A DNA stretch of 64,000 nucleotides. It comes from Burkholderiales bacterium (lineage in GTDB: Bacteria > Pseudomonadota > Gammaproteobacteria > Burkholderiales > SG8-41). The stretch lies in the NCBI GenBank assembly GCA_022841375.1, contig JALHRQ010000010.1, positions 1 through 64,000 on the forward strand, in the 5' to 3' direction. Below the pieces are notes generated by a model that had not been told where the DNA came from, did not search any database, and saw only the letters and a program-made list of their open reading frames with translations. This document shows positions 84 through 30,026 of the stretch, piece after piece; the stretch's first letter is position 1; the number at the start of each line of letters is the position of its first letter. Made by a program: the position numbers and the translations under genes.

Positions 84-1013
84 TTACCAAATGTGTCCGG
101 CAAAGCGGGTGAAACCCATATCGCCCACTTGGAGAGTTTTTTTATTCTTGAATTGCTCTTGAAGCTCCGAGTCAAGTGTGGCATCAAGTGCGATGTCTAT
201 TTTTTCTTTGATATCCTGTTCTTCTGCCTCATCAATTAATTTTGGGGCGATGGCTTTAAACCACTGATTCCATGTGTAAGAGCGTTTGATCCAGTGTCGT
301 TTTTTGAACTTCCAGTGATGACTGGTTGAGCCAGGGTAGGATGGAACCCACTCTTGCTCATCGTAATAAATGTCCACTTCGAACATGTCATCGCCTTGCG
401 AGAGATTCTCCTGACCTTCCGGCGCCTTTTTGAGGGACTCAAGCTTTCCTTTAAGTTCGTCAATTTGATCTCTGAGAAGGAGGATTTGCTTGGGGTCGCC
501 AAGGGCGGATACCGCATCAGCTCGTATCCATCCGATTCCGGGGCTTTGACTTATTAACTGGGTAATGCTTCTGCTGACTTTTCCGCCAAGATCTGTTGGA
601 TCTCTGTACATTTTGCAAAGTCTTGATCCGACTAGATCGCGAAATTTGAGCAATGCATCCCTACCCTTCGGGGTTGCCTCGCACTGACCTTGAGGAATTT
701 TGCTTATATCTTCATGCAGAAAACCGATAACGGGCTTTTTCTGCTCAACCGCATATCTGTACTCCATTTCGGTGTAACTCATACCCTTACCGGGGGCAAT
801 CGTTCCATATCGCCCGGCCACAATAACGATGTAGTAGTCTGATTCGTCTATAACCTTCTTGATCCAGCCCCATTGAGTTTCATTTGCAGCTGGAAATAAT
901 TCCATCCCTGATGGAAAACAGTTCAATTCGAGTAGCGCTTGCATTACCTCCGATCTCTCATATTCCAGATCAGCGTATGTAGAGCTAACGAATACTTGAT
1001 ATCTTTTATCCAT
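84..1013 (-). CDS. DUF4062 domain protein (309 aa), possible defence or signalling cargo
   Basis: The first ~110 residues match the DUF4062 pattern: KRYQVFVSSTYADLEYERSEV at the start, then the conserved MELFPA...QWGWIKKVIDESDYYIVIVAGRYG core and the SYTEMEYRYA segment. This TIR-like/Rossmann fold often sits at the N-terminus of NTPase or effector proteins in accessory regions. Here the C-terminal half (about residues 180-309) holds a short probable coiled coil (LLRDQIDELKGKLESLKK) and then a region I do not recognise; no NTPase motif is visible. There is no signal peptide or membrane segment, so it is probably cytoplasmic. It is divergent from the small gene at 1068. The neighbouring IS remnant and integrase mark it as island cargo. 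A defence role is inference only. Confidence 0.75.
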   Translation of the reverse strand: MDKRYQVFVSSTYADLEYERSEVMQALLELNCFPSGMELFPAANETQWGWIKKVIDESDYYIVIVAGRYGTIAPGKGMSYTEMEYRYAVEQKKPVIGFLHEDISKIPQGQCEATPKGRDALLKFRDLVGSRLCKMYRDPTDLGGKVSRSITQLISQSPGIGWIRADAVSALGDPKQILLLRDQIDELKGKLESLKKAPEGQENLSQGDDMFEVDIYYDEQEWVPSYPGSTSHHWKFKKRHWIKRSYTWNQWFKAIAPKLIDEAEEQDIKEKIDIALDATLDSELQEQFKNKKTLQVGDMGFTRFAGHIW

Positions 1014-1476: not shown

Positions 1477-1656
1477 ATGTTCCCATGGGTGCTCATTCAT
1501 AAGCTTGTCGAACTTACCGGTTATTCGGATGACGCCGTACGCGCAAAAATTAAGCGTGGCGTATGGTTAGACGGCGTTCATTGGCGCAAGGCTCCAGACG
1601 GAAGAATCGTTTGTAATCTTGAGGCGGTAAAAGCGTGGATCGAAAGAAAGGATTAA
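1477..1656 (+). CDS. excisionase-like DNA-binding protein (59 aa)
   Basis: Starting at the ATG at 1477, the protein reads MFPWVLIHKLVELTGYSDDA followed by VRAKIKRGVWLDGVHWRKAPDGRI. This is the winged-helix pattern of the small excisionase family encoded just before DUF3596-type tyrosine recombinases. It would bend att DNA and favour excision over integration. The gene overlaps the integrase by 22 bp, so the two are translated together. No Shine-Dalgarno sequence precedes the ATG, which fits the leaderless promoter described at 1412-1470. An upstream TTG at 1441 is in frame but would lie inside the promoter. Confidence 0.8.
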   Translation: MFPWVLIHKLVELTGYSDDAVRAKIKRGVWLDGVHWRKAPDGRIVCNLEAVKAWIERKD

Positions 1657-2780
1657 GCGTTCGCAGCGGCTCTGGCATTCAAATTGACTTCATGTATCGA
1701 GGTCAGCGATGCCGTGAAACCCTCAAACTTCCGCCGACTCCCGCGAACAAGCTATACGCCTCCCGTAAGCGGGAAACTATCCTGTATGAAATCGCGCAAG
1801 GAGGCTTTAATTACGCGAAGCATTTCCCCGAAAGCCCCAAAGCCAAAGGCTACGCTACAGGCTCCCTCCAGACTGTCGGTCAGGCCCTAGATGCCTTCAT
1901 GAAGGCGGCGCAAAAGCGTTGCGCTCATAGCACCCTTCGCGACTATCAAAGCGCCATTGATTACCACCTAAAGCCAGTCTTCGGAAAACAGCTTTTATCT
2001 GAGGTAACGGCTGCCGACATTAAAGCGTGGATTGGCTTCCTTCAAATATCGCCAAAGCGGATAAATAACGTACTCGTTCCTTTGCGTGGCGTACTGGGCG
2101 ATGCGTTTTCGGATGGCCTGATAGACCGCAATCCTGCTGACAGAATAAAAAACCTCCCCCATCGCCCCGACGAACCGGATCCTCTCTCCCCTATTGAAAT
2201 TAACAAGCTACTTGAGTCCTGCGCTGGACAAGTGCGGAATCTCTTTCAATTCGCGATCTGGACAGGACTTCGCACCTCCGAATTGATTGCACTTGAATGG
2301 GGAGATATCGACTGGAACCGGAGCATTGCCCGTATTCGTCGCGCCAGCGTCCGAAAGCAAATCAAGGTTCCTAAGACTCAAGCGGGAGAACGCGATATCA
2401 AGCTGCTCTCGGGCGCCCTTGCTGCTCTAGAGGATCAAAAAAAGCACAGCTTCCTTCGCGGCAAAGAGATATTTCTAAATCCACGTACGAATTCTTTTTG
2501 GGAAACGGATGCTCAAATCCGTAAAACGGCATGGCAGCCGGCTATTAGGCGCTCTGGAATTCGCGATAGAAACCCGTATCAGACGCGCCACACGTTCGCG
2601 AGCCTTTGCTTGACTTCAGGGGAAGATATTGCTTGGGTAGCACGCCAGCTCGGTCATAAAAGCATTGCCATGACTTTGAAGCGCTACGCCCGATGGATTG
2701 AGGGTATCGAGACGTCCGGAGGCGAGAAATTATCTCGGCTTTTGTCACAGCCAAGCCACAGGAGCGTGGCAAGTGCTTGA
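1635..2780 (+). CDS. int: tyrosine recombinase / phage-type integrase (381 aa)
   Basis: A GTG start at 1635 gives a full-length integrase. Residues 1-80 resemble the arm-binding DUF3596 domain (GSGIQIDFMYRGQRCRETL). A SAM-like core-binding domain follows (TLRDYQSAIDYHLKPVFG), then the catalytic domain. Box I Arg is visible in WTGLRTSELIALEW, box II in YQTRHTFAS (Tyr in place of the usual first His, as in relatives I recall), then RQLGHKS and the probable nucleophile Tyr in TLKRYARW. It ends 19 bp before a tmRNA 3'-end sequence, its likely attachment site. Nothing in the frame suggests inactivation. Confidence 0.92.
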   Translation: MDRKKGLSVRSGSGIQIDFMYRGQRCRETLKLPPTPANKLYASRKRETILYEIAQGGFNYAKHFPESPKAKGYATGSLQTVGQALDAFMKAAQKRCAHSTLRDYQSAIDYHLKPVFGKQLLSEVTAADIKAWIGFLQISPKRINNVLVPLRGVLGDAFSDGLIDRNPADRIKNLPHRPDEPDPLSPIEINKLLESCAGQVRNLFQFAIWTGLRTSELIALEWGDIDWNRSIARIRRASVRKQIKVPKTQAGERDIKLLSGALAALEDQKKHSFLRGKEIFLNPRTNSFWETDAQIRKTAWQPAIRRSGIRDRNPYQTRHTFASLCLTSGEDIAWVARQLGHKSIAMTLKRYARWIEGIETSGGEKLSRLLSQPSHRSVASA

Positions 2781-3091: not shown

Positions 3092-4048
3092 CTACGAAGA
3101 CTTGATCCCGGCCTGGGTTATTACCTTCCGCCACTTCTCGGTCTCCTTCAGGATGTGCTCCCTGAACTCGGCGGGACTGTTGGTTTGCGGTTCAAAACCC
3201 TGCGCCTCCATCTTCCCGCGCGTATCTGATGCATTCACTACCTTGCGGACCTCCGTAGCAAGATGTTGTACCAGCTTTGACGGCGTAGATGCCGGTGCGA
3301 GAAGACCAAACCAAGCCACAAATTCGTACCCCGGAAGACCCGTTTCGGCAATGGTTGGGATGTCCTCTGCGGCCGGCGAACGCTTCAGGCCGGAAACTCC
3401 AAGCGCCCGAAGGCGCCCCGCCCGGACCAGGGAAATCGATGCGGGCATCGGAGCGATCGTGAAATTCAGCTCACCAGCAACAACCGCAGCAACCGCCGGT
3501 CCGGCTCCCTTGAACGGAACGTGATTAAAACGCGTTCCCGACAAGATGCCGAATAATTCGACTGCAAGATGTGACGAACTACCCACCCCTCCCGTCCCGT
3601 AGGTAACTATTCCGGGTTTTTCCTTGGCCATCGCGATCAGATCGCGTGCCGACTTTGCCGGAAAGGCGGGATGCGCAACAAGAAGATTGGGGGTTACCCC
3701 GACCAGAGTGATTGGAGCCAGATCCCTCATCGCATCGTAAGGTAGCTTGGCGCGTAGCGCCGGCTCAGATGCGATGGCGGCACTGTGAAGCAGCAACGTA
3801 TAGCCGTCCCCCCGTGCCTGAACAGTCATATCCGTGCCAATGACACCTCCACCACCGCCTCTATTATCAACAACAACCTGTTGCCCGAATGCCTCAGTCA
3901 TCCCTACCGCCGCGATGCGGGCAACGACGTCCACCGCACCGCCCGGTGCAAAAGGAACAATCATACGTACGGGACGAGTCGGAAAATTTTGAGCCTGGGC
4001 AGGAATCACGAAGAACGCTGCCAGAAGGATGACTAAAGGATATCGCAT
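3092..4048 (-). CDS. Bug/TctC-family tricarboxylate-type binding protein (318 aa)
   Basis: A Sec signal peptide (MRYPLVILLAAFFVIPAQAQ) precedes the family hallmark FPTRPVRMIVPFAPGGAVDV. Other family motifs follow: GQQVVVDNRGGGGGVIGTDM, DGYTLL, GTGGVGSSSHLAVELF and the FKGAGPA loop. Family members are periplasmic receptors that bind carboxylates. Most are orphans with no TctAB next to them, as here. It starts 15 nt after the UGSC selenoprotein gene on the same strand, with an AAGGAGA ribosome site, so it is probably the last gene of the 5651-to-3092 operon. The ligand is unknown, but the operon suggests it feeds the selenoprotein pathway. Confidence 0.9.
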   Translation of the reverse strand: MRYPLVILLAAFFVIPAQAQNFPTRPVRMIVPFAPGGAVDVVARIAAVGMTEAFGQQVVVDNRGGGGGVIGTDMTVQARGDGYTLLLHSAAIASEPALRAKLPYDAMRDLAPITLVGVTPNLLVAHPAFPAKSARDLIAMAKEKPGIVTYGTGGVGSSSHLAVELFGILSGTRFNHVPFKGAGPAVAAVVAGELNFTIAPMPASISLVRAGRLRALGVSGLKRSPAAEDIPTIAETGLPGYEFVAWFGLLAPASTPSKLVQHLATEVRKVVNASDTRGKMEAQGFEPQTNSPAEFREHILKETEKWRKVITQAGIKSS

Positions 4049-4063
4049 GCCAAATCTCCTTGA

Positions 4064-4594
4064 TCAGGATGTCAGCTGACGTACAAACTCATCGACATAA
4101 CGCAGCGTCACTTCACGCATTTCATCCCGATTCAGATTGCTGATCGGATGAGGTAGTTCGATCAAGGGATGTCCATCCATTCCCTTGCTACGGAAGGTGT
4201 GAACGGCTGAGTTTTTGAAAATTTGCGTGAGAAATACCGTTGCAGGTATACCGCGCTTCTCGAATTCCACTGTGTCGTGCACACTGCACAACGTGCAGGA
4301 TCCTCACCCACCAACGGCAGCAGCTGCCACCTGTACTTCGCTCGCCATCTCATTGATCAGTTCTTCGCTCGCGGGCTTGGAGTAATACTCCTTGCGGCGG
4401 ATGATCACCTTCGCCACTCCGTAGCGCTCTTTCAGCACTTCAGCAATCGACTCAAGAATTACGTCTGCCTGCTCCTTGGTGTTGTCGAGCAGCCCGACAA
4501 CCTTCCCAGCAAGATCCATTGGCCGGGGTGCAAGCGGAATCCTTTTAGCACCCCCACCGGCGGTGGGATCAATGAATCCGAGATCATTTGTCAT
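4064..4594 (-). CDS. UGSC-family selenoprotein (176 aa, Sec97 encoded by in-frame TGA)
   Basis: From the ATG at 4594 (GGGGA ribosome site 9 nt before) the frame runs for 96 codons to a TGA at 4304-4306. It then continues without a shift through GSCTLCSVHDTVEFEKRGIP to a TGA stop at 4064. The TGA is followed directly by Gly-Ser-Cys, giving the U-G-S-C motif that defines the UGSC family of (seleno)proteins, probably a redox centre. Upstream sequence (DLAGKVVGLLDNTKEQADVI) and downstream sequence (EMREVTLRYVDEFV) both look coding. A hairpin at 4274-4292 sits where a bacterial SECIS is expected. Without selenocysteine insertion the product would stop at residue 96 and lose the motif. The gene lies between an unknown 339-aa partner and a Bug receptor on the same strand. 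The biochemical reaction is unknown. Confidence 0.85.
4274..4292 (-). promoter_or_regulatory. candidate bacterial SECIS hairpin for the UGSC gene
   Basis: On the coding strand GTTGTGCAGTGTGCACGAC folds into an 8-bp stem (one G-T pair) with a 3-nt GTG loop. The loop begins 19 nt after the TGA. That spacing and a G in the apical loop agree with known bacterial SECIS features. An overlapping alternative, CTGCAC-GTT-GTGCAG, is closer to the TGA. The structure has not been computed. Confidence 0.55.
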
Positions 4595-4631
4595 GTTTGT
4601 TTCCCCAAAGTTTTTTTCGAACTGTTTCCGA

Positions 4632-5651
4632 TCAAACCTCGTATTTTCCATGCACCGAATGACTGGAATCATTCCAGCCGTGGCACACCGCTGTGATCGG
4701 CCCTAATCCGCCAGCCACGACAAGATGTAACCGGTTCGGATCCTTTACTGCCGCGATCGGAAACTCATCGTCATCGGGGTCTACCCCCATTGCTATCGCC
4801 CGCTCGGGCCGCCAATTTCCGCCTCGTTTAAGGTTTCCCTGCTTGCGCACCGCCAGTTCACAGAGCCGATGCTGTACGTCCGATCGGCTCATTCCAGCAT
4901 CGGCACACAGCTTTGCGTGCTGTGGACCCATGACGGCAACGACATCCGAGTTAAACCACATATTCCATGAACCTGATGCCGTCATTGCATCACCAATGCC
5001 TATTAGAAGCCGCTCGGGTTCAGTGCTCACATCGTCAAAATGCAGTCTCGGACTGTCTACCATTGCACATGTAATCACGTTGTCAGTCGGGGAGTAGCCG
5101 CGGGAAACGGAAAGACTCTCCCAGGGACTTTTCGCCATATGTTCGGTCAGGCATGCGGTATAACGAATCGGTGATGCAAAAACGCTCGCCGATGCCATGC
5201 CGGGTATACCGCCACCGAGGTTGGTCAACATCAGCCGGATAGCGCGACCGATTGTGGCATTCGCACGGAATCCGGGACCGAAGCAACCATTTCCACCGTG
5301 CAGGCCTATTTTCTCTGCGTACGGTCCGTTGACAATCATGAGGGGGGCCACACCGTGCATCGTGCACTGCACTCCTCCCATATTGAATTCGTCTCGCAGA
5401 ATCAGTTCAAGCGCCCCCAAAACGACCGGCAGGTATTCAGGCTTGCAACCGGCCATCAGCGCATGAATGGCAGCGGTACGAACGGTGACAGGTTCCAGGG
5501 CTGGTGGAACGCGGCCAATCATTTCCTCTGGTGATCTGCGCGTCCCTGTCAGCATCCACTGAACACGCTCCTCAGTCGGAGTTACGACAGGAAAACCGTC
5601 GGACCAGACCTTTTCAAGAAAAAACTCAAACGGATCAACAGCGGCATTCAT
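4632..5651 (-). CDS. UGSC-associated protein of unknown function (339 aa)
   Basis: The ATG at 5651 has a GAGGAG ribosome site. The product has no signal peptide. It begins with an EKVWSDGFPVVTPTEERV segment, followed by VRTAAIHALMAGCKPEYLPV, a Gly/Asn-rich GGNGCFGPGFRANATIGRA and LGGGIPGMAS. From memory, DGxPVxPPT-type domains like this occur beside or fused to UGSC proteins; I cannot verify that here. It ends 37 nt before the UGSC start, with a Bug receptor after it, so the three are very likely one operon. Cys residues occur in MAGC, VQCTMHG and GGNGCF, which could matter for a redox partner. The function is unknown. The 169 nt upstream (5652-5820) hold no gene I can support. Confidence 0.75.
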   Translation of the reverse strand: MNAAVDPFEFFLEKVWSDGFPVVTPTEERVQWMLTGTRRSPEEMIGRVPPALEPVTVRTAAIHALMAGCKPEYLPVVLGALELILRDEFNMGGVQCTMHGVAPLMIVNGPYAEKIGLHGGNGCFGPGFRANATIGRAIRLMLTNLGGGIPGMASASVFASPIRYTACLTEHMAKSPWESLSVSRGYSPTDNVITCAMVDSPRLHFDDVSTEPERLLIGIGDAMTASGSWNMWFNSDVVAVMGPQHAKLCADAGMSRSDVQHRLCELAVRKQGNLKRGGNWRPERAIAMGVDPDDDEFPIAAVKDPNRLHLVVAGGLGPITAVCHGWNDSSHSVHGKYEV

Positions 5652-5820: not shown

Positions 5821-7131
5821 TTACTTGCCTTTAAACTCAAGAATATCGAAACCCGCAAACCTGTCCATTAAATAAACCAACCCCCGTCCATCAGTATCCA
5901 CGTCATTACTCATGGGACCCGTGTTTTTACCAACTGGTTCAGGAATGAAGTAACCAACCTCCTTCGGACGAAGCGGATTAGCAATATCAACTATACGTAG
6001 CCCTCCACCAAACCAAGTGCAGTAAACAAAGGTATCGTCCATATGCTCCTGGAACTGATGTGCGCCGAAACGACCGCCCGCCGCGCGGCTCCAAGGGGAA
6101 TCCAATTCTCCGATCGTGAAGCAAGACAGTGGTTTGATATTGCCAAAATCCGCTACATCAAAGACCCATAATGCAGCATGCGGCAATCCGGTATGTCGTT
6201 CCCCATCTTTGGTATCGACATGCTGATGTTCTTCATCAACAACTAAGGCGACATCTCGCCCAGCCACTTTAAACGGAACACGCATGAATGTATGGCTAGG
6301 TTCCGGAAATGGAGGATGATAATTGTATTCACCGACAGTCTTGGGCTTCGTAATGTCGTTTACGTCAATGATTTGAACACCTGCATGCCAGCAGCCAGCG
6401 TAAAGATAATTTCCATGACGCATAGTGTGGTGCAGGCGGTTGTCAAACCCTCTCCATGTTGGCTGCTCTCCGGCCGCAACATTTTGCCCAGGCATCCACC
6501 AACGAGAAACTTCTTGTGGTCTTGTGGGGTTCTGAATGTCATAGATTACGAGAATATTTCCATGAAAGCCTTCCATTTCTGTGGATATATACGCATAGCG
6601 TTCATCCATATCGAAACGGTGAACGCCAAGCCCATGGGTTGCCACATATGCTAAAAGTTTTGGATTTGCCTTATCCTTAATGTCCCATACTTTGAAGCCC
6701 CCCCCCTCGAAACCACGGCTTGAAATCTCTTCAAGTTTTGCAACATCGCTCTCCTCGACAAGCAGCTCTTGAGATATTTCTTTTGTCGTCGCATCTTTTC
6801 CAGTTTTTTGTTTGATCGCAATTTTTGCCGCAGCAAGCTTTTCCGCCTTACGAACGAATAGATAGTTATAACGCTCACAATTGGTAATCATGATGTCTCC
6901 CACAACACGGGCCTTGTGGCTGTGCATGTAGGGATCATCTATCATTAGTTGCGAAACAATTTTAGGTTTTCGAGGATCCGAAATATCCAGAATCGTTGTT
7001 CCATAAGGGGGGCGTAAATGCCCTATGTATGCATAGTTACCAACAACCATGATTTGGCCAGCGCCTGGAAGATCCATATGCGAAAGCCGATTTACATTCA
7101 TTGACAAGGGAATTTCTTTTTCAATCTTCAC
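5821..7131 (-). CDS. LVIVD-repeat beta-propeller protein (436 aa)
   Basis: At least six repeats of the LVIVD type are visible: TTILDISDPRKPKIV, VWDIKDKANPKLL, VIYDIQNPTRPQEV, IIDVNDITKPKTV, VFDVADFGNIK and IVDIANPLRPKEV. These predict a beta-propeller. The family is usually secreted or surface-bound, but no signal peptide is visible at this start (GTG at 7131, AGAGGT ribosome site). It begins 31 nt after the Bug receptor gene at 7163-8137 and probably shares its transcript. An insert near residues 110-150 (EKLAAAKIAIKQKTGKDATT) interrupts the repeat pattern. It may bind or process the ligand, which cannot be told from sequence. Confidence 0.8.
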   Translation of the reverse strand: MKIEKEIPLSMNVNRLSHMDLPGAGQIMVVGNYAYIGHLRPPYGTTILDISDPRKPKIVSQLMIDDPYMHSHKARVVGDIMITNCERYNYLFVRKAEKLAAAKIAIKQKTGKDATTKEISQELLVEESDVAKLEEISSRGFEGGGFKVWDIKDKANPKLLAYVATHGLGVHRFDMDERYAYISTEMEGFHGNILVIYDIQNPTRPQEVSRWWMPGQNVAAGEQPTWRGFDNRLHHTMRHGNYLYAGCWHAGVQIIDVNDITKPKTVGEYNYHPPFPEPSHTFMRVPFKVAGRDVALVVDEEHQHVDTKDGERHTGLPHAALWVFDVADFGNIKPLSCFTIGELDSPWSRAAGGRFGAHQFQEHMDDTFVYCTWFGGGLRIVDIANPLRPKEVGYFIPEPVGKNTGPMSNDVDTDGRGLVYLMDRFAGFDILEFKGK

Positions 7132-7162: not shown

Positions 7163-8137
7163 TTAAATGGGATTCAAGCCCGCATCTTTTACAACTTTCG
7201 CCATTTTTTCAATTTCGGTAGTAATGAATTTCGCGTATTCAGTTACGGAGTTCCCGATGGGGACAGCACCCTGACTGGAGAATATTTTGCGCACTTCTTC
7301 TGAATTTAATGTCTCAACGATTGCTCTGTTTAAAATGTCAATCACTGAACGAGGTGTACCTGCTGGAGCCAGCATCCCGAACCCTTGGTTAAACTCATAA
7401 CCCGGTAACGACTCTGAGATTGTTGGGACATTAGGCAATTGTGGTGATCGTTTTGCGCTCGTTACACCGATTGGAACGAGTTTATTTGCCTGGATGTGAG
7501 GCATAGCTGCGGGCTGCGCCCCCATCATAAACTGCACTTGCCCACCGAGAAGATCAGAGGTTGCAGGACCATTCCCCTTGTATGCGATGTGCTGAATTTT
7601 CACGCCCGCAAGGGTGTTAAAAAGCTCGAAAGCCAAATGAGCAAAGGTCCCGGTTCCAGAGGACGCGTAGTTAAGCTTCCCGGGGCTCGCCTTGGCAAGA
7701 TTAATCAGCGTAGAAACAGTTTTTACTGGAACAGAGGGATTTGCGACCAACAAACTTGGAACATCGACTACAAGAGTTATGGGTGAAAAATCTTTTAACG
7801 TATCGTAGGGCAATGACTTGTATATATGAGGGTTAACGACATGGCTTCCTGACACCATCAGAAGCGTGTAACCGTCCGGAGCAGCCCTTGCAACCATTGC
7901 AGTTCCAATAGTTGCACCCGCTCCCCCACGATTATCAACAACGACCTGTTGTCCCAATTTTTCGGTGATTTTTGCCCCAATTACTCTCGCAAAGATATCT
8001 GTGTTACCGCCAGCTGCAAAAGGAACAACTAAACGAATCGGACGATCAGGATATTTTTGTGACGCGGCAAAAGAATAATTTACGGAAAAAATAGATGAAA
8101 GAAATATAAGTCCTAACTTCCAAAAGATTTTGGCCAT
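7163..8137 (-). CDS. Bug/TctC-family binding protein (324 aa)
   Basis: The ATG at 8137 is chosen because GGAGGAG lies 4-10 nt before it; an in-frame TTG at 8149 overlaps that ribosome site. A signal peptide (FLSSIFSVNYSFAASQ) leads into YPDRPIRLVVPFAAGGNTDI, GQQVVVDNRGGAGATIG, DGYTLLMVSG and YKGNGPA, the standard family landmarks. It is an orphan receptor with no TctA or TctB near it, next to an LVIVD propeller gene on the same strand. Ligand unknown. Confidence 0.9.
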   Translation of the reverse strand: MAKIFWKLGLIFLSSIFSVNYSFAASQKYPDRPIRLVVPFAAGGNTDIFARVIGAKITEKLGQQVVVDNRGGAGATIGTAMVARAAPDGYTLLMVSGSHVVNPHIYKSLPYDTLKDFSPITLVVDVPSLLVANPSVPVKTVSTLINLAKASPGKLNYASSGTGTFAHLAFELFNTLAGVKIQHIAYKGNGPATSDLLGGQVQFMMGAQPAAMPHIQANKLVPIGVTSAKRSPQLPNVPTISESLPGYEFNQGFGMLAPAGTPRSVIDILNRAIVETLNSEEVRKIFSSQGAVPIGNSVTEYAKFITTEIEKMAKVVKDAGLNPI

Positions 8138-8235
8138 GAACTCCTCCAATCGAATAAACGATTTACTCAGCTGTCGTTATAATATTTTTAAGATTTCCGC
8201 TTTAATAGTTGCGCAAACTTAGGGCGGTCAGCTTG

Positions 8236-8385
8236 CTACTTATTTTCGTTCAATGCAGGCTTCTCTTTATGCTCCCTGACGATGCTTTCTAATCCATAAA
8301 CTTTACGGGCTTGTAAGTTGGTCGTCCGAATGCTGTCAGCCCCCCCCAGAGCCTGTGCAGGGAAATTAACATTCGCTAATCCACT
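8236..8385 (-). pseudogene. possible gene remnant (49 codons, no start codon)
   Basis: Between two Bug genes the reverse strand reads a protein-like tail with no start: ...LGGADSIRTTNLQARKVYGL, then ESIVREHKEKPALNENK and a TAG stop at 8236-8238. The frame opens only after a stop inside the end of the upstream Bug gene, so no full gene is present. It looks like the C-terminus of a protein lost by deletion, but I cannot name the parent, and a chance open frame remains possible. Nothing else is seen in 8138-8375. Confidence 0.3.
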
Positions 8386-9356
8386 TTAATCTTTGCTTCC
8401 TTCAGAACAGCGCGCCATCTGGCGATCTCTATTTTCAAATAGTCCTTAAACTCTTGTTGGGAATTTCCACCAGGATCAAGACCAAATCGTCTGAATCTAT
8501 CACTAACGTCTGGCATATTAAGTATTCGAATCATTTCGGTGTTCAGCCTGGCCGTAATCGCCTTTGGAGTTTTAGCTGGAACAAAGGCGCCATACCACGT
8601 CAGCACTTCATAACCTGGAACACCCGCCTCCGCGATAGTCGGAACATCCGGAAGAGCAGATGTCCGCTTCGCCCCAGTAACGCCGAGAGCACGCAATTTC
8701 CCAGCATTTATTTGCGGAATCGCGGGCGTTAAAGCCACAAACTGCATCATTACCTGACCACTCAATACATCCCGCATGGCTGGAGTGTTGCCGGTGTACG
8801 GCACGTGAATCATTTTAATTTTTGCCATCCACATCAAGAGCTCCATGGATAGATGGGACGACTGTCCCGTCCCCCCCGATGCAAACGTTAGCTGTCCGGG
8901 TTTGCTTGCTGCCAACGCAATTAGCTCTTTTACTGATTTAACGGAAACAGACGGATTAACGACAAGAATGTTCTGTCCCGAAGAGATTAATGTGATGGGA
9001 TCGAAATCCCGAATAGGATCGTACGAAAGCTTTTCATAAAGACCAGGGTTAATTGCGAAAGGCCCTGCATAACCTAAAATTAATGTGTGGCCATCTGGAA
9101 CTGATTGAGCACCGATTTCCGAACCGATAATTCCTCGCCCACCAGCCCTGGCATCGATTACTACAGGTTGACCCAACGTCTCGCTAAGATGCTGCCCGAT
9201 AAGGCGTGCCGAAAAATCTGGTGCCCCGCCGGGAGCCGCGGGCACAATAAAACGAATCGGTTTACTTGGATAAGCTTGGCCGTAACTAGAAGCACTGCCC
9301 CAGAAAAAAACGAAAAGTAGCACTCGGATTAATTTACAAGATGTCGAATCGTTCAT
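8376..9356 (-). CDS. Bug/TctC-family binding protein (326 aa)
   Basis: The ATG at 9356 follows a GGAGGGAG ribosome site. The N-terminus (CKLIRVLLFVFFWGSASSYG) is a Sec signal, then YPSKPIRFIVPAAPGGAPDF, GQPVVIDARAGGRGIIGSEI, GGTGQSSHLSMELL and VPYTGNTPA. It begins 17 nt after the aconitase gene and so is probably its operon partner, likely bringing in a tri- or dicarboxylate related to that pathway. The usual Asn-Arg of the second motif is changed to DARAGG, which may affect ligand choice. Confidence 0.9.
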   Translation of the reverse strand: MNDSTSCKLIRVLLFVFFWGSASSYGQAYPSKPIRFIVPAAPGGAPDFSARLIGQHLSETLGQPVVIDARAGGRGIIGSEIGAQSVPDGHTLILGYAGPFAINPGLYEKLSYDPIRDFDPITLISSGQNILVVNPSVSVKSVKELIALAASKPGQLTFASGGTGQSSHLSMELLMWMAKIKMIHVPYTGNTPAMRDVLSGQVMMQFVALTPAIPQINAGKLRALGVTGAKRTSALPDVPTIAEAGVPGYEVLTWYGAFVPAKTPKAITARLNTEMIRILNMPDVSDRFRRFGLDPGGNSQQEFKDYLKIEIARWRAVLKEAKIKVD

Positions 9357-9373
9357 GACTCCCTCCAATAAAA

Positions 9374-12028
9374 CTACGACAGCATTGAGCGCAATGTATA
9401 TGGCAAAACACCACGATTTCGAATGTATTCAACCTCAGCACGTGTATCAACACGTACACGCAGATTTATCGCATCAACCTTCCCGTCTTTCCGCTTGATA
9501 ACCAGCGTGGCATTTTGAAGAGGCTGAAGGTTACTCGACAGACCACGAATCTCGAATACTTCGCTCCCATCCAAATTCAGTGTCTGAATGCTGCAACCTT
9601 CGTCAAACTGACAAGGTATAACACCAAGTGCCGCTAAATTCGTACGATGAATTCGCTCAAAACTACGGGCGATTACAGCTTTAACTCCTAGTAGCTGAGT
9701 TCCCTTTGCAGCCCAATCACGCGCACTACCCATGCCATAGTCAAGCCCTCCAAATACAATGGATGCAACGCCCTCCTGTTGATACCGGACGGCAGCATCG
9801 TAAATTGACATCACTTCACCGCTCGGCTGATGCAGCGCAACACTACCTTCGCGATTAGGGACCATGAAATTACGCAGTCTGGGGTTTGCAAAAGTACCGC
9901 GAATCATTACGTCGTGATTGATCCTTCTCGACCCATAAGTATTAAATTTATCTTTTGTTATGCCTAAAGATTGCAAATACTTACCCGCAGGGGAGTCTGG
10001 CATGATTACAGTTACCGGACTGATATGATCAGTTGTTACAGTATCTCCAAGCAGAACTAATGCCCGAGCATTAGTGATATCAGCAATCCCCTCAGCCTCC
10101 ATCGTAAAGTTTTTAAAGAATGGAGGCTCTTTGATATACATGGAGCTTTCGTTCCATTCAAATAAGTCACCAGATGCAGATTTGATATCTATCCATTCTG
10201 CACTTGCCCCAGGCTTCTCATACACAGCTGAATAAATTGAGGCATCCCTGGAAATTGGAAGAACAGCGGCGATCTCATCGGCTGTGGGCCACAAATCTTT
10301 TAGATAAACATCCTTGCCATCCCGCCCCTTGCCAAGAGGGTCTTTAGAAACATCCACATCAATCCGACCAGTAATTGCATAAGCAACTACCAGCGGAGGA
10401 CTCATCAAAAAGCTTGCCTTCAAGGCAGGATGAATGCGCGCCTCAAAGTTTCTATTTCCTGAAAGTACCGCAACTCCAACTTCACCGCTTTTGTTCAGTT
10501 GAGCTTCGTAGTCCTCATACAATGGACCGGTCATACCATTACAGGTTGCGCAACCGTATCCCACCACACGAAACCCCAATTGATCTAACGAATCTTGCAG
10601 ACCAGCGCTCGACAGATAAGCACTTACAGCACGGGATCCAGGCGTTAACGACGTTTTTACCCAAGGCTTGGTTTTCAGTCCTTTCGCTACAGCTTTTTTT
10701 GCCAGCAAGCCGGCAGCCAACATTACCCCCGGGTTTGATGTGTTTGTACATGAGGTAATGGAAGCCACATATATAACCCCATCGCCCGTCGAATTCGCAC
10801 CGTATGATTTTTTCTTACCATAGCCGCCATTACTAACCGGAGCGACCAATAATTCATCAAATTTCTTTGGAACATTTGAAAGCGTAATTCGATCCTGGGG
10901 TCTTTTCGGGCCTGCAACGCTTGGCTTAACACTAGAGATATCAAACGTTACGACGCGTGTGTAATCGATTGCCCCCGGCTTCGGGATGCCAAACATCTCC
11001 TGAGCTTTGTAGTAACTGCGGAAAGTATCGATCTCCTCCTCACTGCGCCCCGTATTCGCCAGAAATCTGCAAACCTCTTCGTCTGGAGCGAAAAATCCGA
11101 TAGTCGCGCCATATTCGGGAACCATGTTGGAAAGAGTGGCTCGATCTGGAACGGTCAGCCCTTCAACTCCCTCGCCAAAATATTCAACAAACGCCCCGAC
11201 AACCCCAGCTTTGCGCAATGCTTCGGTTATGCTGAGAACAACATCGGTTGCCGTAACACCGTCACTCATGCGACCGTGGAGTTCTACTCCGACCACATCC
11301 GGTGTAAGAATAAAAATCGGCTGACCTAATGTAGCCGCCCCCGCATCTATACCTCCAACCCCCCAACCAACAACCCCGATTCCATTGATCATTACAGTAT
11401 GAGAATCAGTGCCAACCAAGGTATCCGGATAGCAAACCCCGTCTTTCTGTAAAACACCGCGCGCCAAGTATTCAAGGTTTACTTGGTGCAGGATACCGTT
11501 GCCGGGGGGAATGACTTTCAGCCCATCAAACGCCACCATTGCCCACTTTAAAAACTGAAATCGTTCGACGTTGCGTCGAACTTCCAGTTCCATATTTTTC
11601 TCAAGCGCGTCGGGTCCATCGTTATGATCAACCGCCAAGGTGTGATCAACAACCATGGTTACCGGAACTTTTGGCGCGATTAATCTGACATCTTTTTTTA
11701 ATCGTGAAGCAGCACTACGCATTGCAGCCAAATCGCCGAGGGTCGGAATCCCCGCTAACTCGTGCATTACTACGCGACCGACAATGAATGGTATCTCCGA
11801 TACACGCTTACCGTTGGGCTCCCAATTTGCCAATTGCTTTACGTGCTCTTCAGTAACTCGAATCCCATCACAGTTTCTGACCAGTGACTCAAGTATCATC
11901 CTTAACGAAACCGGAAGACGGCTAACATCGGCAATTCCGTTGCCTTTAAGCGAGGGCAAGGAGAAAAAGGACTTAGATATACCCGAGCTGTTTTTGAATT
12001 TCGATTTGGCGCGAAGGGGGTCATGCAT
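9374..12028 (-). CDS. acnA: aconitate hydratase A (884 aa)
   Basis: Full-length AcnA-type aconitase. Landmarks are PVTMVVDHTLAVDHN, YPDTLVGTDSHTVMINGIGV, the first iron-sulfur Cys in SITSCTNTSNP and the Cys pair in YGCATCNGMTGP. The swivel domain contains GSARDWAAKGTQLLGVKAVI. It interconverts citrate, cis-aconitate and isocitrate in the cytoplasm. The ATG at 12028 (MHDPLRA) is preferred over the one at 12043 because a GGAG precedes it. It lies between a TcuA-like flavoprotein (which could supply cis-aconitate from tricarballylate) and a Bug receptor. This fits a tricarballylate or aconitate utilisation set. Probably a second, island-borne copy beside the housekeeping aconitase; that is inference. 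Confidence 0.93.
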   Translation of the reverse strand: MHDPLRAKSKFKNSSGISKSFFSLPSLKGNGIADVSRLPVSLRMILESLVRNCDGIRVTEEHVKQLANWEPNGKRVSEIPFIVGRVVMHELAGIPTLGDLAAMRSAASRLKKDVRLIAPKVPVTMVVDHTLAVDHNDGPDALEKNMELEVRRNVERFQFLKWAMVAFDGLKVIPPGNGILHQVNLEYLARGVLQKDGVCYPDTLVGTDSHTVMINGIGVVGWGVGGIDAGAATLGQPIFILTPDVVGVELHGRMSDGVTATDVVLSITEALRKAGVVGAFVEYFGEGVEGLTVPDRATLSNMVPEYGATIGFFAPDEEVCRFLANTGRSEEEIDTFRSYYKAQEMFGIPKPGAIDYTRVVTFDISSVKPSVAGPKRPQDRITLSNVPKKFDELLVAPVSNGGYGKKKSYGANSTGDGVIYVASITSCTNTSNPGVMLAAGLLAKKAVAKGLKTKPWVKTSLTPGSRAVSAYLSSAGLQDSLDQLGFRVVGYGCATCNGMTGPLYEDYEAQLNKSGEVGVAVLSGNRNFEARIHPALKASFLMSPPLVVAYAITGRIDVDVSKDPLGKGRDGKDVYLKDLWPTADEIAAVLPISRDASIYSAVYEKPGASAEWIDIKSASGDLFEWNESSMYIKEPPFFKNFTMEAEGIADITNARALVLLGDTVTTDHISPVTVIMPDSPAGKYLQSLGITKDKFNTYGSRRINHDVMIRGTFANPRLRNFMVPNREGSVALHQPSGEVMSIYDAAVRYQQEGVASIVFGGLDYGMGSARDWAAKGTQLLGVKAVIARSFERIHRTNLAALGVIPCQFDEGCSIQTLNLDGSEVFEIRGLSSNLQPLQNATLVIKRKDGKVDAINLRVRVDTRAEVEYIRNRGVLPYTLRSMLS

Positions 12029-12126
12029 TTTCAGAATCTCCATTGGCGCCCGGCTTTAATATCAACAAACAGTAAAGGTCCGGAGCCTGTGTTTATCGAG
12101 CGCGCGATTAATGTAGGGAAACTCCC

Positions 12127-12180: not shown

Positions 12181-13680
12181 CTACACGCCCGATTTCGCGT
12201 GCAGTGCAGCTTGCGTGCCTGCAATTCGTCCAAATACCGCACCAGAAACAAGTCCTGTGCCACTCGGATAGTTGAAGTAAAACAAACCGCCTACCATTTC
12301 ACCGGCTGCAAACAATCCGGGAATTTCACGTCCAGCGACACTTTGGACTGCCGCTTTCGTCGAAACTTTGACGCCACCAAAAGTAAAGGTAATACCGCAG
12401 GTGACGGCGTATGCCTGGTAAGGCGGCTTGTCTATCGTTTCCGCCCAATTCGATTTAGGAACCGCTAGTCCTTGAGTGCATTTCCCATCTTTGATCACAG
12501 AATTGAACGGAATATCTTTTCTCACCGCTGCATTAAAGTGTTTTACTGTTTCCAGGAATCGATTCTTGTTAACCCCCTCCATCTTGTCCGCGAGTTCTTC
12601 CAGTGAATTCGCCTCCACTTTCGTCACTTGCTTAATGCGGTATTCATCCCGTAGCAGAGGTATCACCTTGGAATCATAAACTTGCCAAGAAAACATCCCT
12701 GGCTGTTTCAGAACATCTAAGCCGTATTTAGCGTAAGTAAAGTTCCGGAAATCAGCACCTTCGTCTACGAATCGCTCACCATCCGCATTGATCATTATTG
12801 AGTAGGGATAGCTATGCTTCTGAAACCCGTCGCCCACAACGCGATCACCAAACGTTGGTGCATTCATGTCCCAGCCAACCGCGTGAGCACCCGACCAATG
12901 CCCACAGGGCATCGCCCCCGCGCGCAAAGCCATGTTGATGCCGTCCCCCATGTTGAAGCGCGTCCCCCGCACTTTCGCGAGGTCCCAATTGGGTCCCAGA
13001 TACCGCGCCCTCATTTCGGCATTTGACTCAAATCCGCCTGCAGCCAGAACAACAGCTTTTGCCATTATTTTTGACTGAATCCCATGAGATTCAGCCACGA
13101 TACCGACAACTTTTCCGGCTTCTTGAATAAGTGAAACCCCTGCGGTCTCATAAAGAATGGGGATCCCAGCAGTCTTAGCAATCTTATGCAGAGATTCCAC
13201 CAACCCCGCACCACCACCCCAGAATGCGCAAACCTGTCCGCCAAAGAACTTAAATCGCCCATCCACCTTGTGCGCTTGCCTTCCATACATCGGCTCAAAC
13301 TTCACACCCTTCTTTTTCATCCACGCCAAAGTGGATCGGCTGTTCCCAATAAGTGTTTCCGTCAAATCCGGGTCACAGCGATACTGTGTAACGCGGCCCA
13401 TATCATCGAAAAAGTTCTCCGAAGTATAGACACCGAAATCTACATTTCTCTCTTCATCCGCGGACACATCCAGAACTTCGCGTAACTCAGCAATATTGTT
13501 AAAAACAAAACGTGTTGCACCAGCGGTAAAAAAGCTATTCCCCCCAGCTTCGACTTCAGGTGCCCGCTCTAATACAATCACTTTGACACCATTCTCATGC
13601 GCTGCCATAGCAGCACAAACTGCGGCATTTCCCGCGCCAACGATAACCACATCCGTTTCAGTTACATCTTTCAACAGCAT
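12181..13680 (-). CDS. TcuA-like FAD-dependent dehydrogenase (499 aa)
   Basis: The N-terminal dinucleotide fold is clear (DVVIVGAGNAAVCAAMAAHE, then VLERAPEVEAGGNS). It belongs to the FAD-binding family 2 group (fumarate reductase/succinate dehydrogenase flavoproteins). The C-terminal signature YAVTCGITFTFGGVKVST plus GLFAAGEMVGGLFYFNYPSG is like tricarballylate dehydrogenase TcuA. TcuA oxidises tricarballylate to cis-aconitate. AcnA follows on the same strand, which agrees. The iron-sulfur/heme partner TcuB is not in the window, so the electron acceptor is open. The start at 13680 has an AAAGGAG site. A divergent FadR-type regulator and a candidate operator lie upstream. A paralogue is at 24551-26053. 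Confidence 0.85.
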   Translation of the reverse strand: MLLKDVTETDVVIVGAGNAAVCAAMAAHENGVKVIVLERAPEVEAGGNSFFTAGATRFVFNNIAELREVLDVSADEERNVDFGVYTSENFFDDMGRVTQYRCDPDLTETLIGNSRSTLAWMKKKGVKFEPMYGRQAHKVDGRFKFFGGQVCAFWGGGAGLVESLHKIAKTAGIPILYETAGVSLIQEAGKVVGIVAESHGIQSKIMAKAVVLAAGGFESNAEMRARYLGPNWDLAKVRGTRFNMGDGINMALRAGAMPCGHWSGAHAVGWDMNAPTFGDRVVGDGFQKHSYPYSIMINADGERFVDEGADFRNFTYAKYGLDVLKQPGMFSWQVYDSKVIPLLRDEYRIKQVTKVEANSLEELADKMEGVNKNRFLETVKHFNAAVRKDIPFNSVIKDGKCTQGLAVPKSNWAETIDKPPYQAYAVTCGITFTFGGVKVSTKAAVQSVAGREIPGLFAAGEMVGGLFYFNYPSGTGLVSGAVFGRIAGTQAALHAKSGV

Positions 13681-23615: not shown

Positions 23616-24551
23616 TCAGCTGTATTTGGTTTTTGCTGCAGCACCCAGGTAGCGGGCCTCCAGTTCCTGCTGCCGGTCTGCACCTTCGCCTTCCGCCCCA
23701 ACAAAAGGCCGTGGATAAGGCCGGTCCTTCCGGCTTAACTCGAAATCTTCCCAGGCCGCGATTCCGCGATGCTGGAAGTCCTGCATGAAGTCATGCAAGG
23801 CAGCCCACATCACCTGATGCGTAAATCCCGGATACCAGGCGATGTTGACACCCAGCGCCAGATGTTCATCCAGGCCAAGATAACGGGGTAACTTGCCTTT
23901 CATGAACGAAAACGGTCCCTCCAATGCCTTGCGTGCCTGCAGGATCTCGGCTTCCGAGTGAGGAGACTCAAGCTGCACCCAGTCCACACCAGCTTCATCA
24001 CGGTAGGCTTTCAGGCGAACAATCGCGTCCTCAAGGCTGCTGTTCACAGCATCGCGGGCGTAGCACTGCGACATGATCACAAAATCAGGATCAATTTCGT
24101 TTTTCATGTCGACCGCAGCTTTATAACGGGCCACAGCCTGCTCGATTGGAACGACCTCGACTCCAGCGCTTTGCGTGCGCCGCTTGCCCTCAATGGGCTG
24201 ATCATCGATGCGAATTCCCGCAATACCGGCACGAATTGATTCGCGAACCAGCCGCCGGACGGCCATGATTCCTCCATGGCCGGTGTCACCGTCAAGAATG
24301 ATCGGGAATTCGGCACTCTGCGCAATCCAGCCGCCGATCTGAATGCATTCCGTCATGCTCGCGGTGCCCACGTCTGCCAGCCCCGTATACGAACCGACTA
24401 CGCCGCTGGTACCAACAAAACCGACTTCGCAACCGGCTTGCTCCATGATTCGTGCATGCGTGGCCGAAGGCGGATGCAACACCACCAGCACTTTGCCCTG
24501 CCGATGGATGAGCTGCTTCAGGCGGGTGGTTTTCTTGAGGTGATCCACCAT
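23616..24551 (-). CDS. isocitrate lyase/PEP mutase superfamily protein with altered active-site loop (311 aa)
   Basis: The (beta/alpha)8 family is recognised by MEQAGCEVGFVGTSGVVGS, the metal-binding IILDGDTGHGG, AGIAGIRIDDQP and DPDFVIMSQCYARD. In lyases of the family the gating loop is K-(K/R)-C-G-H with a catalytic Cys; here the same place reads EGKRRTQSAG, so that Cys and His are absent. It may be a mutase, decarboxylase or hydrolase type rather than a methylisocitrate lyase. It overlaps the TcuA-like gene by one base (TGATG), so the two are translationally coupled. It probably cleaves or modifies the product of the upstream enzymes. Confidence 0.85.
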   Translation of the reverse strand: MVDHLKKTTRLKQLIHRQGKVLVVLHPPSATHARIMEQAGCEVGFVGTSGVVGSYTGLADVGTASMTECIQIGGWIAQSAEFPIILDGDTGHGGIMAVRRLVRESIRAGIAGIRIDDQPIEGKRRTQSAGVEVVPIEQAVARYKAAVDMKNEIDPDFVIMSQCYARDAVNSSLEDAIVRLKAYRDEAGVDWVQLESPHSEAEILQARKALEGPFSFMKGKLPRYLGLDEHLALGVNIAWYPGFTHQVMWAALHDFMQDFQHRGIAAWEDFELSRKDRPYPRPFVGAEGEGADRQQELEARYLGAAAKTKYS

Positions 24552-26053
24552 CAGCCGGCCTGCTTTGTATTGGAAAGAGACTGCAAAGCCGCTTCGCGGC
24601 CTGCAATGCGGCCAAATACTGCACCGGCCATCAACCCTGAGCTGCCGGGATAATTGAAATAAAACAGTCCACCCACCAGTTCTCCCGCAGCATAGAGGCC
24701 AGGCAGCGGTTGATCCTCAATGTCAAGCACTTGGGTAGTGGGCGCGATCTTGAGTCCGCCAAATGTAAAAGTAATGCCGCAAGTCACTGCGTACGCACTG
24801 AAGGGCGCCTTTTCGATCGGATTTGCCCAATTTGACTTGTTGATTGCAAGACCTTCCGTGCATTTCCCATCCTTGATATTGGGATTGAATGAAACATCCC
24901 TTTTGACCGAAGCATTGAACTCGCGCACCGTTTGCAGAAACTTCGGAGCGTGGACATCCTCCATCTTGGCCACCAGTTCCTCCAGCGTGTTGGCCTGAAC
25001 TTTTGTGGTCCCTTTGGAGCGATATTCATCATGAAGCAGATGATCCACCTGCGAGTCGAACACATGCCACGCGAAACTGCCTGGCTGCTCCAGCACGATG
25101 CGGCCATATTTTGCGTAGGTATAGTTCCGGAAATCCGCGCCCTCATCGACAAAACGCTCGCCATTGGCATTGATCATGAGACTGAATGGATAACCGTTAC
25201 GGCTCGCCGTGATCGGACGATCAAGATCACCAAAGTCCGGCGCATAACGTTCCCATGACACTGAATGACAGCCGGACCATTGCCCGTAAGGCTGCGCGCC
25301 GGCATCCAGCGCCATTCTTATACCGTCACCGGTGTTGTAGCGTGTCCCCCTGACTTTGGCCATTTCCCAGCCAGCGCCAAGGTAGCGCGTCCGCCACTCA
25401 CGGTTGGCTTCGAAACCACCCGCAGCGATCACCACCGCATTGGCGTGAATCTGCTCCTCTACCCCTTTGGTTTCAACGCGCACACCACAGATGCCTGATG
25501 GCCCGCGAAGGAGCCCTGTGGCACGGACGCCGTATCGAATAACCACACCGAATTTCACCGCCGCCTTGTATTCCGCCTCGACAAGGCCTCGGCCGCCGCC
25601 TGTGGCCTCTACAACCGTGCCACCGAAAAATTTGAATTTTCCTTCATGCTTGAAGGCATATCGGCCAAACCGTGGGACAAAGCGGACACCTCGCCCGTGA
25701 AGCCATTGGACAGTGTCCGTGCTGTTGAGCACCACCGTCTCCGCCAGATCCGGATCGCAGTAGTATTGAGTCACACGCCCGAGGTCATCCAGATACTGCT
25801 CCGCGGTATATTCGCCAAAATCCGTATTGGCAATCTCGCCCTCCGACAGATCCGGGACTACGGATCGTACGGTTTCAGCGCCGTTGTGCACCATGCGAAA
25901 TCCTCCGCCAGTGAAAGCACTGTTCCCGCCCCGTTTTTCCTCAGGCGCACGCTCTAGCAGCAATACCGATGCACCGTGCTCTCTTGCCGACAAAGCGGCA
26001 CACAGTGCCGCATTACCACCACCGACTACCACGACATCGTAATTTTCAGCCAT
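24551..26053 (-). CDS. TcuA-like FAD-dependent dehydrogenase, second copy (500 aa)
   Basis: Start at the second ATG (MAENYDVV), with AGAGG 8 nt upstream. The FAD fold (DVVVVGGGNAALCAALSARE, then LLERAPEEKRGGNSAFTGGG) and the C-terminal YAVTCGITFTFGGLKI...GLYAAGELVGGLFYFNYPGS parallel the protein at 12181-13680 throughout, so the two are paralogues. No TcuB partner is present here either. It overlaps the LeuD-like gene by 8 nt. Tricarballylate is the known substrate of TcuA; other saturated tricarboxylates are possible. Confidence 0.87.
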   Translation of the reverse strand: MAENYDVVVVGGGNAALCAALSAREHGASVLLLERAPEEKRGGNSAFTGGGFRMVHNGAETVRSVVPDLSEGEIANTDFGEYTAEQYLDDLGRVTQYYCDPDLAETVVLNSTDTVQWLHGRGVRFVPRFGRYAFKHEGKFKFFGGTVVEATGGGRGLVEAEYKAAVKFGVVIRYGVRATGLLRGPSGICGVRVETKGVEEQIHANAVVIAAGGFEANREWRTRYLGAGWEMAKVRGTRYNTGDGIRMALDAGAQPYGQWSGCHSVSWERYAPDFGDLDRPITASRNGYPFSLMINANGERFVDEGADFRNYTYAKYGRIVLEQPGSFAWHVFDSQVDHLLHDEYRSKGTTKVQANTLEELVAKMEDVHAPKFLQTVREFNASVKRDVSFNPNIKDGKCTEGLAINKSNWANPIEKAPFSAYAVTCGITFTFGGLKIAPTTQVLDIEDQPLPGLYAAGELVGGLFYFNYPGSSGLMAGAVFGRIAGREAALQSLSNTKQAG

Positions 26054-26597
26054 TCTTGCCATCCTCTTTCATTACATTGCTTTTTGCCAACGCGCGCTTG
26101 CGCTGATAGCGCTCATACGCGAATTGCGGAAGACCGCCGCATTCAAAGATCTCTTCAATCGCAGCCGGATATTTTCTTAGCGCAACACTGCTTCCGTTCT
26201 GGGGATTGCTGACGATCCCCCGCGGGTAATCCACCTCCAGTTGATCGCCGTCATTGATCAGGGACGAAATCCCTGGAGCAACAAAGATTGGAATCGCACG
26301 GGAGATGCTGTTGCGTAGAAACAAGCGCGCCACTGACTCGGCAATAATGGCCGCGATCCCGACCTCGCGAAGCACCAGTCCGGGGCGGCTGGAACCACAG
26401 CCGAAATTACGGCCGGCAACCAGAATGTCGCCCGTTTTGACCTCCCGGGGAAACTCGGGCCTGTAGACCTCCATCGTGTGCAACTTGAGTTCTTCCATGG
26501 TGGGATACCGGTAATAGGGATTAATCGCATCCGTTTCGATCGAGTCACCGAATTTCCAGACCCGCCCGCGGATCACCTGCTTCAGATTAAAGCCCAC
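26046..26597 (-). CDS. LeuD-like (homoaconitase-type) small subunit (183 aa)
   Basis: The short swivel domain shows GRVWKFGDSIETDAINPYY, the VAGRNFGCGSSRPGLVL loop, FLRNSISRAIPIFVAP and the KYPAAIEEIFECGGLPQFA tail. The length is nearer to archaeal/homoaconitase-type LeuD than to the 200-aa copy at 16184. It overlaps the large-subunit gene by 11 nt and the TcuA-like gene by 8 nt. Together with the large subunit it should form an aconitase-like hydro-lyase for a tricarboxylate or substituted malate. Confidence 0.87.
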   Translation of the reverse strand: MGFNLKQVIRGRVWKFGDSIETDAINPYYRYPTMEELKLHTMEVYRPEFPREVKTGDILVAGRNFGCGSSRPGLVLREVGIAAIIAESVARLFLRNSISRAIPIFVAPGISSLINDGDQLEVDYPRGIVSNPQNGSSVALRKYPAAIEEIFECGGLPQFAYERYQRKRALAKSNVMKEDGKNG

Positions 26598-29994: not shown

Positions 29995-30026
29995 AATGCC
30001 CAATTGCGATGCAATTGGGCATTTTT
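29995..30026 (+). terminator. rho-independent terminator
   Basis: AATGCCCAATTGC and GCAATTGGGCATT form a 13-bp perfect stem with a GAT loop, followed by TTTTT. It could be the original tmRNA terminator or that of the Bug gene. Confidence 0.85.

Follow-up and report, generated by a model that had tools for sequence, protein, structure and literature searches.

The UGSC gene of the window (the 64,000-nucleotide stretch of Burkholderiales DNA analysed here) appears to be one half of a two-gene unit that has multiplied within one bacterial family, and comparative sequence evidence supports well the view that the two halves make up one enzyme. Taken as a whole, we consider it likely that a UGSC protein with selenocysteine (Sec) at UGA97 and the product of the adjacent partner gene form a two-subunit selenoenzyme, for which a GrdB-like chemistry is the likeliest. 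The partner gene, ten paralogues, a hairpin and a kinship to GrdB go beyond an earlier note on this DNA, which had recognized the selenoprotein. In water metagenomes UGSC ranks with the most frequent selenoproteins (255 sequences with Sec in a single survey; PMC2398784), and a 2026 review describes the functions of such selenoprotein families as largely uncharacterized (PMC13188914). A linked partner offers a concrete handle on the function of UGSC.

The gene and its surroundings comprised the following features.
4064-4594, minus strand: UGSC selenoprotein gene, 176 aa, ending in a terminal TGA (4066-4064), identified by family profiles
4304-4306, minus strand: in-frame TGA, read as Sec97 of the UGSC motif in the read-through translation
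4602-4606, minus strand: Shine-Dalgarno-like GGGGA upstream of the ATG of the UGSC gene, read from the sequence
4632-5651, minus strand: partner gene, 339 aa, with 37 nt from its stop to the UGSC start codon

Read on the minus strand from 4594 to 4064, the translation starts with MTNDL, passes through VGG-U97-GSC-TLC and ends in QLTS before the terminal TGA; the plus strand of this interval is not one open frame. The earlier note, which named no strand, had described a frame continuous across a single TGA followed by Gly-Ser-Cys, and this is what the minus strand holds. Its expectation that gene callers would split the gene was also borne out, as open reading frame (ORF) calling cut it into two ORFs (4304-4672 and 4064-4291). 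The Pfam profile PF24696 spanned residues 8-175 uninterrupted over the TGA (166.1 bits, cut-off 25), and the NCBIfam profile NF041046, which matched 74 of 74 aligned UGSC members, scored 134.2 bits (cut-off 125). Both curated cut-offs were exceeded and the first place of the motif, occupied by Sec or Cys in the family, is the TGA at codon 97. The U-G-S-C motif and the family named in the earlier note were thus both recovered, and the gene at 4594-4064 truly belongs to this family. The match is more than chance, since PF24696 runs continuously across the TGA and a single TGA at the UGSC motif recurs in ten other genes of this genome. By read-through of its internal stop codon, the gene very probably gives rise to a protein that contains selenium.

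The genome of the window (G000; 4.08 Mb in 66 contigs, 99.05% complete) contained 11 UGSC genes in a search with PF24696. All scored above the cut-off, each had exactly one TGA, and in 11 of 11 the UGSC motif was found at that TGA after read-through. Two of the genes were fused to the partner, in open frames of 573 and 619 aa, and the eight other unfused copies were 30-37% identical to the window copy. All 60 genomes of the family to which the window belongs, its own included, had UGSC genes (median 11 per genome), and all 60 had the partner. Together they held at least 876 UGSC and at least 910 partner genes, the high per-genome counts in this comparison being lower bounds, as up to 48 UGSC and up to 35 partner candidates were scored in each genome. 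Counting all UGSC matches, fragments included, the relatives G001, G050, G033 and G008 had 57, 34, 25 and 20, respectively. In G001, 51 of the 57 matches had exactly one TGA and no other stop, although a few of these cover only part of the profile and the motif itself was read for only part of them; the remaining six had another stop or no TGA. G001 is a draft assembly in about 330 contigs, with 98% completeness and 2% contamination, so strain mixing may have inflated its copy number. One UGSC-like copy in G001 (L141, contig C76) had lost the Sec motif (CNAGITQP) and still adjoined a partner match.

Neither Pfam nor NCBIfam matched the window partner at E 0.1, and in a Pfam scan of 76 partner proteins (E 0.05) no family was shared by two or more of them. 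The residues D18, G19, P21, A67, G68, C69, G109, P110, G135, R136, N144, E170 and G314 were invariant in the alignment of the 76 proteins. Of the 13 partner copies in G000, 11 adjoined or were fused to the 11 UGSC genes, and two (C21:45593-46552 and C3:156278-157225) had no UGSC neighbour. UGSC came first in five pairs and the partner in four, while two pairs were fused; adjacency has thus been kept but gene order has not, given five against four in the nine unfused pairs.

The same association was seen outside G000. External partner loci were taken as the 80 best from a profile scan with one genome per species, and their hosts included Beta-, Gamma- and Alphaproteobacteria, Chloroflexi, Acidimicrobiales, Rokuibacteriota, Poribacteria, Bacillus dakarensis and Natrialba asiatica. 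A recognizable UGSC match was present at 70 of these best 80 loci. It lay within 256 bp of the partner and on the same strand at 67 (at L089 as a partial match), at 393 bp at one locus and at about 2.6 kb at two. The retrieved stretch contained no UGSC at 10 of the 80 (L038, L078, L084, L087, L090, L091, L093, L105, L106 and L107), and in two of these, L105 and L107, the partner sat at a contig end. Some loci deviated from a simple pair. L031, L033, L035, L037 and L038 had two to four tandem partners beside two, one or no UGSC genes, L038 having three partners and no UGSC in the retrieved stretch. In the Poribacteria loci L090, L091, L093 and L106 the last part of the partner matched as a separate fragment, with no UGSC nearby.

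Copy numbers of UGSC and partner were closely correlated over the 60 family genomes (r = 0.976; r = 0.990 without G001 and G031, whose partner counts are lower bounds). Pairwise distances among the nine unfused UGSC proteins of G000 followed those among their partners (r = 0.80, permutation p = 0.002). Because of this strict linkage, the natural fusions, the matched copy numbers and the correlated divergence, UGSC and the adjacent 339-aa partner in all likelihood form a two-subunit enzyme, with UGSC as the putative Sec-bearing subunit. The ocean survey mentions UGSC fused to an unnamed domain, Unknown_1 (PMC2398784), just as two G000 genes are fused to the partner. Set beside the partner by its description only, Unknown_1 may or may not be the same protein; the partner found here is, in contrast to that fusion, mostly a separate gene, linked in 11 of 11 cases.

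A survey covering more than 5200 organisms gives 26 and 33 in its table row for UGSC (PMC5029168), taken here as organisms and genes; against this stand 11 genes in the single genome G000 and an occurrence in 60 of 60 family genomes. The largest bacterial selenoproteomes named in the 2026 review comprise 57 and 63 genes, of which the 63-gene Methylomirabilota genome is credited to a groundwater-genome study (PMC13188914); an expansion may already have been seen in that study. The passages on UGSC consulted in the selenoprotein literature describe neither this expansion nor an adjacent partner gene. According to the same review, most selenoprotein-rich bacteria are anaerobes, among them Thermodesulfobacteriota, Synergistota and Clostridia (PMC13188914). 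This picture would be altered by 51 intact-looking copies of one family in a single relative, from a lineage that is betaproteobacterial as judged by the names given to its nearest relatives. We give an even chance to the broader proposal that the pair represents an unrecognized, substrate-diversified class of two-subunit selenoenzymes, distantly akin to glycine reductase through the Sec domain only, whose radiation has left dozens of copies in single genomes. If so, the radiation would have taken place in a betaproteobacteria-like family known mostly from metagenomes, and the pair alone would yield a selenoproteome comparable in size to the largest described.

In the predicted model of UGSC (pLDDT 93.6) strands and helices alternated, and the Sec was placed after strand 3 (residues 89-93), ahead of the helix of residues 101-113. 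A fold search returned generic Rossmann- or flavodoxin-like structures (best E 6e-5). Across the 50 PDB matches listed, all of them weak, TM to query ranged from 0.28 to 0.56, and there was no thioredoxin among them. Judged by this predicted model, the UGSC domain is Rossmann-like and not thioredoxin-like. The partner model was equally confident (pLDDT 94.5), and its fold search gave nothing at E ≤ 0.001. Sequence searches against solved structures gave no convincing match for the partner (best E 0.053) or for UGSC (best E 0.023).

A distant kinship to GrdB, the selenoprotein of glycine, sarcosine and betaine reductase, was found in the Sec part of UGSC. The glycine reductase selenoprotein B model TIGR01917 matched 33 of the 74 UGSC members at E ≤ 0.05 (best E 2.2e-6), the sarcosine model 27 and the PrdB model four. 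A comparison of the UGSC profile with that of three GrdB homologues, a single pair, gave a probability of 85 and an E-value of 6.7e-7 with Sec aligned on Sec. UGSC is nevertheless no full-length GrdB as judged by PF07355 and TIGR01917: it scored 19.6 bits against a cut-off of 602.2, over residues 72-165 only, and within this weak similarity residue 97 fell on the Sec of GrdB. The likeness to GrdB is confined to the Sec part, with scores below the curated cut-offs. There the motifs correspond, UGT[SC] and then LERAGIPS in GrdB facing UGSC and then FEKRGIPA here. GrdB has a GrdE-type pyruvoyl partner; the partner described here is unrelated to GrdB, and the idea that it is a part of GrdB was discarded, as it had no profile resemblance to GrdB or to PrdB-like proteins.

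PF07355 matched in 40 of the 60 family genomes and gave no match in G000. Full-length GrdB homologues with a TGA were encoded separately in relatives (L147 and L148, ILTSTUGTSTRCG; L149, ILVSTUGTCTRCG). Seven short PF07355 matches in relatives were PrdB-like UxxC proteins reading LTPVUPNC or close variants, also with a TGA. They share with UGSC a TGA followed by xxC, but read UPNC instead of UGSC, matched the UGSC profile weakly (probability 0.7, E 0.038) and did not match the partner. These GrdB- and PrdB-like genes with in-frame TGA (L147, L148, L149 and L150-L156) are further candidate selenoproteins. UGSC-motif selenoproteins have also been described in Geodermatophilaceae, where the tRNA-Sec anticodon is CUA (PMC5330540), whereas the codon here is UGA.

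As the Rossmann-like Sec domain is similar to the C-terminal, Sec-bearing part of GrdB, the likeliest chemistry by analogy is GrdB-like: the selenolate would attack carbon, and the adduct would subsequently be resolved. We propose this mechanism tentatively, at clearly less than an even chance. The substrate would enter the cell through TctC receptors, and the partner would bind and polarize it; it would be small and is probably carboxylic, so that by analogy the pair probably acts on carboxylic acids. The selenolate would then attack the carbon and displace a leaving group, and the seleno-adduct would be resolved in a last step. The many paralogous pairs would be variants for different substrates.

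The 2008 ocean survey suggested a different function for the UGSC family, a thioredoxin-like redox role of the UxxC motif (PMC2398784). UGSC would then have a thioredoxin-like fold and act as a thiol-disulfide oxidoreductase, with UxxC as its redox centre; the spacing of the motif and the near-invariance of C100 (90% or more in 74 sequences) would fit this. The confident model, which alternates beta and alpha elements, and the fold matches listed speak against such a fold. Moreover, UGSS replaced UGSC in L046, L062, L102 and one G008 gene, from which we conclude that the second Cys of the motif is dispensable, and a thiol-disulfide exchange would leave the link to the partner unexplained. We consider this function unlikely.

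In some alphaproteobacteria the pair was found within a compact set of Sec genes. Two loci from Henriciella metagenome-assembled genomes (L085 and L097) comprised selA, selB, tRNA-Sec, partner, UGSC and a pyridine-nucleotide-oxidoreductase/SelD fusion, all on the same strand. Another alphaproteobacterial locus, L063, had selB, tRNA-Sec, partner and UGSC on one strand and selA on the opposite one; SelD was not seen at this locus. Profile matches identified tRNA-Sec at all three loci, selB at L063 and L085, and selA at L085; selB of L097 and selA of L063 and L097 were recognized by similarity. The fusions scored above the selD and Nterm_to_SelD cut-offs; the 'fusion_not_SelD' model matched them too, but under its own cut-off. 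Each of the three genomes had a single UGSC match, and the Henriciella cassette thus represents a small system with one UGSC gene. If the two-subunit selenoenzyme is real, the compact Sec cassette of some alphaproteobacteria would be assembled around the pair as its client.

In the window, the pair was part of a run of genes on one strand, from a TcuA-like gene (starting at 13680) down to a TctC gene (ending at 3092), with these neighbours.
3092-4048, minus strand: TctC (Bug) solute receptor, PF03401, 227 bits, 15 nt downstream of UGSC
5821-7131, minus strand: LVIVD-repeat beta-propeller protein upstream of the partner, by Pfam profile
7163-8149, minus strand: TctC solute receptor, by Pfam profile
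8376-9368, minus strand: TctC-like solute receptor, by the look of the sequence
9374-12043, minus strand: aconitate hydratase AcnA, three AcnA models at 1132-1216 bits, above cut-offs
12181-13680, minus strand: FAD-dependent tricarballylate dehydrogenase, TcuA-like, NF006130, 571 bits (cut-off 369)

The second TcuA model, TIGR02485, scored below its cut-off on the last of these (265 against 373). The TctC receptor at 3092-4048 is probably in the same operon as UGSC. TctC proteins made up 14 of the 77 neighbour proteins around the 11 G000 pairs, a set to which the protein at 8376-9368 belongs, and 10 of 102 external neighbour proteins, among which were also three SelB. The TctC neighbourhood may be background, since TctC-like sequences recur in the window (by eye) and in 34 searched loci, and the uncalibrated link between TctC and the UGSC pair is suggestive only. 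Other neighbours were discarded as conserved companions: the LVIVD protein had no match in the loci searched, AcnA had none above 80 bits there, and TcuA exceeded 80 bits only in L026 and L145.

This background leaves some room for the view that the pair is a selenium store or a peroxide defence module beside which the catabolic genes are incidental: a neighbourhood of frequent genes is weak evidence, and in the Henriciella cassette the Sec genes and the pair follow one another with no catabolic gene in between. The eleven diverged paralogues of G000 look instead like substrate diversification, the window copy sits in a same-strand run with TcuA-like and AcnA genes, and the Sec segment resembles GrdB. 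We consider storage or defence unlikely.

The selenoprotein reading itself was consistent with the gene content of G000. The earlier note had proposed a search of the genome for selA, selB, selC and selD, and this returned the whole bacterial set: tRNA-Sec on contig C3 (75.9 bits, cut-off 47), selB (421.6 bits, cut-off 242) and selA (577.2 bits, cut-off 268) near it, and selD on contig C15 (419.3 bits, cut-off 125). The selD gene had one TGA and its product reads GGGUGCK at that codon; SelD is therefore of the Sec type and itself encoded by a TGA gene. The alignment of homologues at residue 97, also proposed there, had U in 74 and C in one of 75 rows, the sole C row being that of the archaeon Natrialba asiatica. 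Among 160 sampled genomes of the phylum, three contained UGSC and 20 contained tRNA-Sec. Both genomes with a TGA-bearing UGSC gene (G000 and G199) had tRNA-Sec. The third, G202, had a UGSC gene without TGA, which reads CGSC and adjoins a partner, and tRNA-Sec was not detected in it by a search whose stricter filters lose weak matches. A CGTS variant was present in G008, a genome that also holds TGA copies.

We are nearly certain that UGA97 is decoded as selenocysteine by SelA, SelB, SelD and tRNA-Sec, as insertion can be inferred from the coding pattern and the machinery present. The two ORFs given by mechanical calling would also fit a true stop, in a decayed gene or two short genes. This is highly improbable and was rejected, since the TGA is common to 11 of 11 paralogues and 74 of 75 aligned rows, sequence is conserved on both of its sides among the aligned homologues, Cys replaces Sec where tRNA-Sec was undetected, and the UGSC gene sits within a complete Sec cassette in Henriciella. 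A variant code in which the open in-frame TGA is read as another amino acid, such as Trp, has a negligible probability and was likewise rejected, since the same gene terminates in TGA, the aligned rows hold only U or C at the Sec column and the full Sec gene set is present.

Bacterial SECIS elements are hairpins with an apical G shortly past the UGA. A candidate was found in the window gene.
4274-4292, minus strand: SECIS-like hairpin GUUGUGCA-GUG-UGCACGAC, 8 of 8 pairs, loop starting with G-U

The stem starts 11 nt past the UGA and encloses a three-base loop, which begins with G-U in most sequences. Over 66 unique sequences the hairpin was conserved and covarying. The fixed stem was paired in 89.6% of cells, compared with at most 54.5% when one side was slid by up to 6 nt, and pair 20-26 was C-G in 38, G-C in 23, U-A in one, U-G in one and unpaired in three; the two outermost pairs formed in only 45 and 48 of the 66. 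Hairpin energies of 84 TGA sequences were compared with 200 synonymous-codon shuffles per sequence, giving a mean z of -1.9 and p ≤ 0.05 in 43 of the 84, tests that are not independent because the sequences are related by descent. At least seven of the eight stem pairs formed in 59 of the 84 and in nine of the 11 G000 copies; the fused copies (C14a and C1) deviated, with five and two of eight. The window hairpin was not significant by itself (z -1.6, p 0.065). The TGC (Cys) copy of Natrialba asiatica (L055) also had a low hairpin energy at the same place (z -3.0, 7 of 8 pairs), perhaps as a remnant of a Sec ancestor or as an effect of the conserved protein sequence. Given this Cys copy, the hairpin may partly reflect protein sequence or shared ancestry; in the selenocysteine reading it would guide insertion at UGA97.

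Scans of the whole window gave no Rfam match and no tRNA. The segment 9374-27885 is, by its predicted gene content, a tricarboxylate-type catabolic island, with TcuA-like genes at 12181-13680 and 24551-26062, AcnA, LeuC/LeuD-like proteins and another aconitase-family protein. Measured in 2-kb steps, the G+C content ranged from 0.46 to 0.56 up to position 30000 and from 0.55 to 0.64 in the remainder (30000-64000). The left end of the window encodes an integrase (1635-2780, plus strand; PF00589) and a DUF4062 protein (84-1013, minus strand). Given the lower G+C content and these two genes, the first 30 kb of the window looks horizontally acquired.
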